A stretch of DNA of 47,139 nucleotides from a virus, in the IMG/VR virus record IMGVR_UViG_3300032893_000088, positions 1 through 47,139 of that record; one strand, written 5' to 3'. Made by a program: the position numbers and the translations under genes. The notes under the pieces were generated by a model. The model saw only the letters and a program-made list of their open reading frames with translations. It had not been told where the DNA came from and ran no database searches. Shown one piece after another: positions 11,247-12,947 of the stretch (positions within the stretch are counted from its first letter, which is position 1; each line of letters begins with the position of its first letter).

Positions 11247-11360
11247 GTGGAAAAAGTCAGGCTCGATATTTGGCTCGCGTCGTGGCAACCATGGGCTTCG
11301 CAGCCTATCTACATCATGCGCACATCGCGCAAATGGAGTCTAGTTTATGAAACCTACTGA
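11247..11360 (+). CDS. Possible small protein (37 aa)
   Basis: A GTG at 11247 follows GGGAGGG at good spacing. The 37 codons run to TGA 11360, overlapping the next start by 14 bases. The product is Trp-rich (five Trp). It fills an otherwise empty gap of about 100 bases, but no motif supports it. Confidence 0.4.
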   Translation: MEKVRLDIWLASWQPWASQPIYIMRTSRKWSLVYETY

Positions 11361-11652
11361 CGCTGAGATCGTTGATGTTGCACAGTGCGCCTTTTGGGAT
11401 GCTGTCGTGGACATGCTGCCCGAAGTAAAGACCGGCGACTTTCCGCCCGACGCGCAGTTTGCTTTCGATGAGGCATGCCGCAAGGCTGTGACACTATGGC
11501 GGGAGATCAACAAACCGGAGCCCGGCGCGCTGTTATCGCAAACCGTGGCACGCGCGCAGGACTTGCTTGAGCGCTGCCGCGACGGTGAGCCGGTAACGCA
11601 GCGGGATTTTGAGACGGTCATCGACTTCTGCCGCCGAGCGCTCAGGCAATGA
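11347..11652 (+). CDS. Conserved hypothetical phage protein (101 aa)
   Basis: ATG 11347. The 101-residue protein starts KPTDAEIVDVAQCAFWDAV, a pattern I recall in small phage proteins near replication genes. It is all-helical and mildly acidic. Its TGA (11650-11652) overlaps the ATG of the methyltransferase. Function unknown. Confidence 0.7.
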   Translation: MKPTDAEIVDVAQCAFWDAVVDMLPEVKTGDFPPDAQFAFDEACRKAVTLWREINKPEPGALLSQTVARAQDLLERCRDGEPVTQRDFETVIDFCRRALRQ

Positions 11653-12947
11653 CTGCCTACTACAACGAGAATGACCCCAAGGCCGCAGCGTGGCTGCGCG
11701 AACTAATCAAACACGGTCACATCGCACCGGGCGACGTGGACGAGAGGAGTATTGTTGATGTCAGACCAGGAGAGCTCAAAGGCTACACGCAAGCGCACTT
11801 CTTCGCGGGCATCGGCGGGTGGAGCTACGCGCTCCGCCTCGCGGGCTGGCCGGATGATCGACCAGTCTGGACCGGAAGCTGTCCTTGCCAGCCTTTCAGC
11901 GTGGCAGGCAAAGGCCGAGACGTGGACGACGAACGACACCTGTGGCCTGTATGGCGCGCCCTCATCCGCGAGTGCAGCCCGTCAATTATCTTTGGCGAGC
12001 AGGTTAGTTCGCCTGCTGCAATGTGCTGGCTCGCCCTTGTACAAGATGACTTGGAAGGTGCGGCTTACAGCGTCGCGTCGGCCGATCTGTGCGCTGCGGG
12101 CGTCGGTGCCCCGCACATCAGACAGCGGCTCTACTGGGTGGCCGTCTCCAGTAGTGAACGACTCGAAAGGGAGCGACTACACCTACGCGAACGGGAATCA
12201 CAACCGTCCGAGCCTGAAGTTGGGCGGAGCGGCGAAGCTGACAGCGGCGTGGCCCACGCCGACGACGCGCGATCACAAGGATGGAGCGAGCGACGGAACA
12301 GCGCCGATCAACGCTCTGCTTGGGCGCACAGCCTGGTTGGCTGCCGAGATGGGAAGTGGCGGCCAGTTGAACCCGTTGCACAGTCAATGGCTAATGGGAT
12401 ATCCCTGGCACTGGAGTGTCTGCGGAATTGCAGCCATGAGGAAAGGGAAGCGCTGACTGATGCCACAAAGGCCTTTGGATTTACCATCGAAACCGTGCGA
12501 GCGTTGCGGGAAGGAAATGCGCCGACGACGATTTGGCGCGCGTTTGGAGGACGCATCGGTCTTCCGCAAGCGACGCTACTGCTCGCTGTCGTGTGCGAAC
12601 AGGCGTGGGAACTGGGGCCGTTCTTCAACGGCCCGGAGGCGAGCGGCGAGGAAGAATGCGAAGCCCATATGCGAGCGTTGTGGGGCGAGCCCTCGGCGAT
12701 TGCATGTGCACCACAAAGACAGGAATTTTCAGAACAACACGTCAAGCAACTTGGAGACGCTGTGTCCGCGCTGTCACAAAAGAGCGCACGCATAGCTGAG
12801 TTGCTGGAGATGCTCGCGCCGTTCAATGGTTTTCCGCTCGCGCATAAGATTCCCGGCCGCGTGGGACTCCTGCGGGGCTACGGCAATGCAATCGTTCCGC
12901 AAGTCGCCGCGGCGTTCATCGAAGCCGCAACAGGAGTAGAGCCGTGA
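11649..12947 (+). CDS. dcm: DNA (cytosine-5) methyltransferase, with nested genes
   Basis: This 432-residue enzyme would transfer a methyl group from S-adenosylmethionine to cytosine in a short DNA site, probably to protect phage DNA from host restriction. Motif I is AHFFAGIGGW (residues 49-58), motif IV with the catalytic Cys is TGSCPCQPFS (75-84), and motif VI is FGEQV (115-119), a common phage variant of ENV. Motif VIII is RQRLYWVA (158-165) and motif X is LRGYGNAIVPQVAAAF (408-423). Residues 166-390 lie between VIII and X where the target-recognition domain should be, but their composition is odd. Codons 37-382 are overprinted by two genes in another frame (11758-12456 and 12460-12795). 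Start is ATG 11649, coupled to the previous stop. Motif X is preceded by FPLAHKIPGRVG, as normal. Activity is likely but not certain because the recognition domain is unusual. Confidence 0.85.
   Translation: MTAYYNENDPKAAAWLRELIKHGHIAPGDVDERSIVDVRPGELKGYTQAHFFAGIGGWSYALRLAGWPDDRPVWTGSCPCQPFSVAGKGRDVDDERHLWPVWRALIRECSPSIIFGEQVSSPAAMCWLALVQDDLEGAAYSVASADLCAAGVGAPHIRQRLYWVAVSSSERLERERLHLRERESQPSEPEVGRSGEADSGVAHADDARSQGWSERRNSADQRSAWAHSLVGCRDGKWRPVEPVAQSMANGISLALECLRNCSHEEREALTDATKAFGFTIETVRALREGNAPTTIWRAFGGRIGLPQATLLLAVVCEQAWELGPFFNGPEASGEEECEAHMRALWGEPSAIACAPQRQEFSEQHVKQLGDAVSALSQKSARIAELLEMLAPFNGFPLAHKIPGRVGLLRGYGNAIVPQVAAAFIEAATGVEP
11743..11760 (+). promoter_or_regulatory. Internal ribosome-binding site inside the methyltransferase gene
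   Basis: AGAGGAG at 11743-11749 with ATG at 11758-11760 is one of the best Shine-Dalgarno/start pairs in the window. It has no role in the enclosing methyltransferase frame, so it supports independent translation of the nested gene. Confidence 0.65.
11758..12456 (+). CDS. WPTP-type phage protein nested in the methyltransferase gene
   Basis: This 232-residue product lies wholly inside the methyltransferase gene, in a different frame. ATG 11758 is preceded by a near-ideal AGAGGAG (11743-11749) with 8 bases between. It carries signatures I recall in a family of phage proteins found beside C5 methyltransferases: SLASRLVRLLQ, LYKMTWKVRLTASRRPICAL (about residues 95-115), RASVPRTSDSGSTGWPSP, WPTPTTRDHKDGASDGT (about 165-182) and the closing GGQLNPLHSQWLMGYPWHW. 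No catalytic motif is visible and its function is unknown; a partner of the methyltransferase is one possibility. The alternative is that the resemblance reflects frame-shifted reading of a conserved methyltransferase. The separate ribosome site and the intact ending argue for translation. Confidence 0.6.
   Translation: MSDQESSKATRKRTSSRASAGGATRSASRAGRMIDQSGPEAVLASLSAWQAKAETWTTNDTCGLYGAPSSASAARQLSLASRLVRLLQCAGSPLYKMTWKVRLTASRRPICALRASVPRTSDSGSTGWPSPVVNDSKGSDYTYANGNHNRPSLKLGGAAKLTAAWPTPTTRDHKDGASDGTAPINALLGRTAWLAAEMGSGGQLNPLHSQWLMGYPWHWSVCGIAAMRKGKR
12460..12795 (+). CDS. HNH endonuclease nested in the methyltransferase gene
   Basis: This 111-residue protein is in the same frame as the preceding nested gene, separated from it by one codon (TGA-CTG-ATG) and preceded by GAGGAAAGGGAAG. 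It has an N-terminal Cys site (CERCGKEM ... RRYCSLSCANR) and a C-terminal HNH core: CERCGASPRRLHVHHKDRN (about residues 71-89), N near 97 and LCPRCHKRAHA at the end. The paired CxxC units would hold structural zinc while HH, N and H form the nicking site. HNH proteins with this GARLED...RRYC layout are familiar in phages next to methyltransferase genes. It may be a homing-type nuclease or act in packaging or restriction. The enclosing methyltransferase frame stays open through its whole length. Confidence 0.8.
   Translation: MPQRPLDLPSKPCERCGKEMRRRRFGARLEDASVFRKRRYCSLSCANRRGNWGRSSTARRRAARKNAKPICERCGASPRRLHVHHKDRNFQNNTSSNLETLCPRCHKRAHA

Follow-up and report, generated by a model that had tools for sequence, protein, structure and literature searches.

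Can the catalytic core of a cytosine methyltransferase share its bases with a second protein read in another frame, and what would that protein contribute to the enzyme? The question is raised by a locus in the 47,139-nt window analyzed here (the whole stretch of DNA under study), a 47-kb IMG/VR virus record that also carries terminase, DNA polymerase, helicase, primase, exonuclease, and tail fiber genes. Its C5-cytosine methyltransferase gene (frame A) starts in an ATGA shared with the stop codon of an upstream ORF (11347-11652) and contains a +1-frame ORF (frame B), followed in the frame of B by an HNH endonuclease ORF (Table 1). The coordinates, frames, and motifs given in the original prediction for A, for B, and for the AGAGGAG sequence in front of B are correct. 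Outside small viruses, two well-conserved proteins seldom share a long same-strand overlap.

Table 1. Features of the overlapping methyltransferase locus, in window coordinates
Feature	Position	Strand	Evidence
Frame A, C5-cytosine methyltransferase catalytic subunit, 432 aa	11649..12947	+	PF00145, E 1.3e-14; phrog_363, E 7.6e-77
Frame A motif II-III-like N-terminal segment (YYNENDP..GDVDERS)	11655..11756	+	AF2 topology; hhalign weak
Frame A motif I, HFFAGIGG	11796..11819	+	Sequence; near-invariant in homologue alignment
Frame A motif IV, SCPCQPF, including the catalytic Cys	11877..11897	+	P79 and C80 invariant in alignment
Frame A motif VI, GEQV	11994..12005	+	Invariant in alignment
Frame A motif VIII, GAPHIRQR	12105..12128	+	R158 and R160 invariant in alignment
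Frame A motif X, RVGLLRGYGNAIVP	12858..12899	+	PWM 46.5 bits, frame A only
Frame B Shine-Dalgarno sequence AGAGGAG, inside the codons for D-E-R-S of A	11743..11749	+	Sequence; enriched in homologues
Frame B, +1-frame protein, 232 aa, putative recognition subunit	11758..12456 (ATG at 11758)	+	phrog_1008, E 7.3e-25
Frame B conserved hairpin, KMTWKVRLTASRRPICALRAS	12043..12105	+	Strands 96-103 and 109-116; best-ordered stretch of the B model
Frame B WPSP and WPTP modules (two), putative target-recognition array	12139..12354	+	Module families shared across loci
Frame B motif IX, LNPLHSQWLMGYPWHW	12367..12414	+	48.1 bits in the +1 frame; negative in frames 0 and +2
HNH endonuclease ORF in the frame of B, start codon 3 nt past the stop of B	12460..12795	+	PF01844, E 1.7e-7; phrog_1271, E 1.9e-16

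Frame A is a catalytic chain that lacks motif IX

Frame A scores 54.9 bits on PF00145 (cut-off of 22) and holds C5-methyltransferase motifs I, IV (PCQ), VI, VIII, and X. Motif IX and a target-recognition domain are absent from the chain, motif IX staying below threshold in a matrix scan, so A is not a complete one-chain enzyme. In this respect the original prediction, which had read A as a complete methyltransferase, has to be corrected: the missing motif is encoded in B. The AF2 model of A is disordered at residues 197 to 244, where the recognition domain would be expected, and pLDDT values in the variable region range from 32 to 47.

The N-terminal part of A also departs from the usual motif order. 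Within window positions 11655 to 11819, motif I comes after a motif II-III-like segment, and PCQ stands only about 20 residues past motif I. The AF2 model of this part has pLDDT values of 87 to 97, with 90 to 97 over the motif II-III-like segment, and the order b2-aB-b3-b1-aA-b4, and Foldseek aligns the A model with M.HhaI over only about 170 columns. A local permutation that places the motif II-III-like segment before motif I is probable on the basis of the predicted topology, from which it is read since an hhalign profile test of the permutation was weak (P of 0.005, with 0.018 for the reversed control).

Frame B is open in all homologues and has its own start signals

Frame A and frame B queries against viral contigs, phage records, and genomes yielded several hundred relatives. 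To assess openness, 275 loci with frame A were reduced to 180 nonredundant ones (90% identity), each compared with 200 synonymous-codon shuffles. The +1 frame is open in 180/180, over 164 to 503 codons (median, 295; shuffle mean, 152), and the frequent stop codons in the second frame that would have counted against B were not encountered. About half of the single homologues beat all of their 200 shuffles; the window's own open length is reached by 2 of 200 shuffles. The +2 frame of the 180 homologues is open no longer than the synonymous-shuffle null. The shortest +1 opening belongs to a Staphylococcus phage and runs through an HNH insert rather than through B.

The start of B is marked as well. 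The Asp codon that forms its ATG is GAT in 79% of the homologues (background, 42%), and AGGAG occurs at the upstream Arg-Ser codons in 27%, against the 4% expected, which supports the ribosome site that had been proposed for B.

Among 179 homologous B ORFs, most from loci fetched via A only, 176 are matched by the window's B at E ≤ 1e-5. Since the +2 frame too shows some similarity excess over synonymous shuffles, the similarity test does not by itself single out B; codon-position differences and four-class rates do. Frame B has no match in Pfam, in the PDB, or among known folds. Its AF2 model is poor (mean pLDDT of 60, pTM of 0.27), and the viral Foldseek matches obtained with it are same-family relatives only. 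For the B of a Stenotrophomonas locus, a search for close relatives found none.

Selection acts on both frames of the overlap

The ratio of third- to first-position differences, taken over 30 independent close pairs, falls from 4.6 where A is alone to 2.1 in the core and 0.8 in the variable region, both overlapped by B. Four-class overlap rates, calculated with a simplified form of our own of published overlapping-gene estimators, separate the two frames. In the core, B is under purifying selection, with dNN/dNS of 0.62 [0.52-0.71] and dSN/dSS of 0.36 [0.25-0.50], against 1.67 and 1.04 in the upstream A-only region and 1.48 and 0.75 for the +2 frame in the core. There A is itself selected (dNN/dSN of 0.21). 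Both frames are therefore selected across the same bases, as is expected of an overprinted gene, and purifying selection is not confined to the methyltransferase frame. Together with the openness of the frame in all 180 homologues, this makes the predicted overprinting of the enzyme core, catalytic Cys included, real.

In the variable region, B remains constrained (0.56 to 0.63), and A is weakly selected to neutral, with dNN/dSN of 0.68 in an A-guided alignment and 0.88 in a B-guided one. That A is here both near neutral and disordered while B is constrained supports the placement of the recognition part in B, which probably carries it.

Motif IX and the putative recognition modules change frame between loci

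Frame B ends in LNPLHSQWLMGYPWHW, with the spacing of canonical motif IX (L-x-P-x6-M/Q-G-F/Y-P-x2-aromatic) and the pattern LNPxxxxWLMGYPxxW. The R-E residues of the canonical motif are missing from it, and canonical motif IX strings mostly fall below threshold on a B-derived matrix; the identity of the motif thus rests on its spacing, its adjacency to motif X, and its in-frame relatives. Where canonical C5-methyltransferases of the same bacterial genomes have a recognizable motif IX (LTPRECARLQGFP), it is encoded in the frame of the enzyme itself, and B is absent.

The in-frame relatives are informative. A plasmid of Embleya has a second ORF with the sequence LPTPTAS...LDPAFVEWLMGLPPGW...LRALGNSVVPRQ, in which a single frame holds the module motif, motif IX, and motif X. 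Actinophages such as Rita have a one-chain enzyme composed of the core, LPTP modules, LAPAFSEWMMGWPAGW, and motif X. Of 502 loci in a matrix scan, 429 have motif IX in the +1 frame with motif X in frame A, 13 (actinophage type) have both in frame A, and 3 have both in the +1 frame. Furthermore, a B profile trained on +1 proteins only recovers the in-frame recognition and motif IX part of 13 of the 16 one-chain actinophage enzymes (E of 5e-9 to 2e-4 at Z=1e6), with 0 matches in 10,020 shuffled decoys. Two actinophage-type contigs, L566 and L568, have near-identical cores and share an LPTP-IX-X segment that continues A in one contig and B in the second, apparently switched between frames by a small indel. 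Four other loci (L038, L218, L322, and L420) keep the core and motif IX together in a frame that motif X does not share, which fits a single-base indel between motifs VIII and IX; this frame change may be a sequencing error or a natural fusion.

The WPTP/LPTP modules have a median length of 39 aa, and module families reappear at varying array positions, in either frame, at many loci. Judged from these module clusters, the putative recognition modules stand in tandem and are exchanged between enzymes, as in the multispecific class with tandem target-recognition domains (TRDs). The actinophages L548 to L551 and L552 to L566 encode a one-chain enzyme, yet a shorter +1 ORF persists over the core, corresponding to the N-terminal part of B, usually with one or two LPTP modules. 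Conservation of the N-terminal half of B thus extends to loci with a one-chain actinophage enzyme; carriage of the TRD and motif IX does not account for it.

The A/B pair is widespread and mostly annotated as one gene

Among 80 bacterial-genome and 80 viral loci found with the B profile, A occupies the -1 frame in 160/160; the bacterial ones include Desulfovibrio, Nitrospira, Planctomycetota, Verrucomicrobia, Leptospiraceae, and Bacteroidetes MAGs. With a B profile from phages of Gram-positive hosts, A is nested in 80/80 further loci, and a methanogen plasmid carries the same arrangement. B as an independent neighboring gene is ruled out by this nesting with A in 240 of 240 B-found loci. The original prediction had taken B for a member of a phage family that travels with such enzymes; the phage family holds (phrog_1008), and the role of mere companion does not, B being always nested and carrying motif IX. 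In the Edwardsiella phage eiAU (L102, 1417-2832), B meets no stop codon ahead of the downstream N6-adenine methyltransferase gene and runs open into it.

Hundreds of tailed phages and prophages share this deeply conserved overlap, which is usually annotated as a single gene, either A or B. GenBank annotates A only in N15 and epsilon15, B only in PMG1 and W5_chr3, and both nested genes in K1H, fKuEco01, PhiXhv-18, and DevRi. Among the PHROGs, phrog_363 corresponds to frame A and phrog_1008 and phrog_31772 to frame B, all labeled "DNA methyltransferase." The label is misleading for the latter two, which match B and not the catalytic frame, and because databases give both frames this name, an A/B locus looks ordinary. 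The "Mte8-like protein" of K1 phages belongs to these families as well, and nowhere do the labels of the two frames state that one overlaps and completes the other.

HNH elements lie at the junction of motifs IX and X

Out-of-frame HNH inserts were found in 20 domain rows from 16 locus records, representing about 10 distinct elements, all in the +1 frame. Their distribution is patchy, and nearly all homologues are without one. In the window-type family, the site always lies between motif IX of B and motif X of A. Within the insert, differences concentrate at the third codon position of the HNH frame (0.50, against 0.21 to 0.22), which indicates that A is merely kept open there. The HNH start codon lies 0 to 3 nt past the stop of B in 10/10 loci inspected, the window included, and this abutment suggests translational coupling. 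Splicing of the insert as an intron was considered and rejected, with no Rfam match.

Two further loci show other contexts. In the Staphylococcus phage CUB-EPI_14 (L110, 1988-2480), a canonical one-chain C5-methyltransferase without B holds an out-of-frame HNH insert of the same family. In L012 (2977-4812), B is open in frame into downstream HNH (endonuclease VII-like) sequence.

An HNH domain hidden in a mycobacteriophage DNA methylase gene has been described in ShiLan, where the question of how it is translated was raised (PMC11855218). As here, that domain is out of frame, and the methylase gene around it remains open in its own frame; the methylase family and the site differ from those of the window HNH. 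ShiLan shows no detectable ribosome-binding site (PMC11855218), whereas the window HNH, in the frame of B and starting at its stop, has a likely route of translation. This arrangement suggests such a route for hidden HNH insertions in methylases.

A two-subunit enzyme is the preferred reading

We propose, with a probability of roughly 80%, that the locus encodes a heterodimeric C5-methyltransferase, a reading drawn from motif complementarity and selection in the DNA. Frame A would yield the catalytic subunit, with the SAM-binding motifs, the catalytic motifs, and motif X. Translation of B, in the +1 frame, would begin at the internal Shine-Dalgarno sequence and ATG (11743-11760). B would bring motif IX together with a short array of exchangeable WPTP modules acting as target-recognition domains. 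The two chains would then assemble, B docking via motif IX at the position of the small domain of a one-chain enzyme, and the complex would methylate the DNA of the phage, the modules determining the sites, presumably as a protection from host restriction. The HNH homing element, in the conserved IX-X junction, would leave A open and is probably made through termination-reinitiation from B.

One rival is that B is a by-product, its frame open merely from the codon use and amino acid makeup of the enzyme. The moderate excess in the window, where a few shuffles reach the observed length, would suit it, as would the tendency of high-GC DNA to keep frames open. Openness in every one of the homologues with a null-like +2 frame, selection ratios well under 1 against controls above or near 1, and a variable region that conserves B over A make it extremely improbable, and a chance open frame is ruled out on the same grounds. 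Ribosomal frameshifting from A into the C-terminal half of B, giving an A-N/B-C fusion in place of internal initiation, would account for motifs I to VIII and motif IX lying in different frames and recalls the four loci that join the core and motif IX in one frame and leave X in another. We regard it as very unlikely: the start signals of B are enriched in homologues, B is open and selected across the core, upstream of any useful shift site, and a fusion ending in B would be without motif X at most loci.

More weight, if still little, belongs to B as a real overprinted protein with a separate role outside the methyltransferase, for example in anti-restriction or regulation. The N-terminal half conserved beside one-chain actinophage enzymes that have the TRD and motif IX in A speaks for it, as does the want of a PDB or Pfam fold match. 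What makes this unlikely is that B is always nested with the enzyme and carries the very motif that A is missing, and that its C-terminal half is homologous to an in-frame part of one-chain enzymes, with the frame switching between L566 and L568.

The two-subunit reading accounts for both the missing motif IX and the unrecognizable recognition domain in methyltransferases of this type. If it is true, a recoded frame A cloned alone is predicted to be a dead enzyme, and the methylation specificity of a phage would be readable from the modules of its B. The loci also provide hundreds of natural sequence pairs for the study of two-frame coevolution. We lean, with less assurance, toward a broader reading in which widespread cytosine methyltransferases of phages and prophages, with a range that spans several bacterial phyla and reaches a methanogen plasmid, would be obligate heterodimers whose recognition subunit is hidden in the +1 frame, its shuffled multimodule array moving between frames and its translation being exploited by homing nucleases.

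Comparison with known two-subunit and multispecific enzymes

The nearest likeness is with M.EcoHK31I, whose small gene is reportedly nested inside the large gene in another frame. This YGGCCR methyltransferase (Lee, Kam and Shaw 1995) has motifs I to VIII and X on the large subunit and motif IX on a smaller polypeptide, and both polypeptides are required in vitro (PMC3404938). Compared by motif layout as described there, the window type is alike, with motif IX on a second polypeptide and I to VIII and X on the first (429/502 loci). With this characterized precedent (PMC3404938) and the GenBank records of K1H and fKuEco01 annotating both genes, the remark in the original prediction that no description was known went too far. 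The two differ in setting, M.EcoHK31I belonging to a restriction-modification system and the window enzyme being an orphan phage enzyme. They differ also in the recognition part: that description assigns the TRD of M.EcoHK31I to the large subunit (PMC3404938), whereas in the window type the modules are apparently in the small subunit, tandem and shuffled, with A near neutral there.

A literature search, with most subscription papers outside its reach, found no description of the phage-wide A/B arrangement. By its sequence features, the window type would be a variant of the two-polypeptide C5-methyltransferase, one for whose extent and modular design we found no description. M.AquI likewise splits the motifs of one enzyme between two subunits, but end to end, the small subunit holding both IX and X (PMC3404938), whereas the window genes are nested; the Embleya plasmid locus, in which the overlap is short and the second ORF carries both motifs, resembles M.AquI. 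Finally, the multispecific C5-methyltransferases of the Bacillus phages SPR, phi3T, and H2 are phage orphan enzymes with several tandem recognition domains, as is proposed here (PMC8936443). Those enzymes are each described as one chain in one frame (PMC8936443), whereas the putative array of the window enzyme lies in an overlapping frame.
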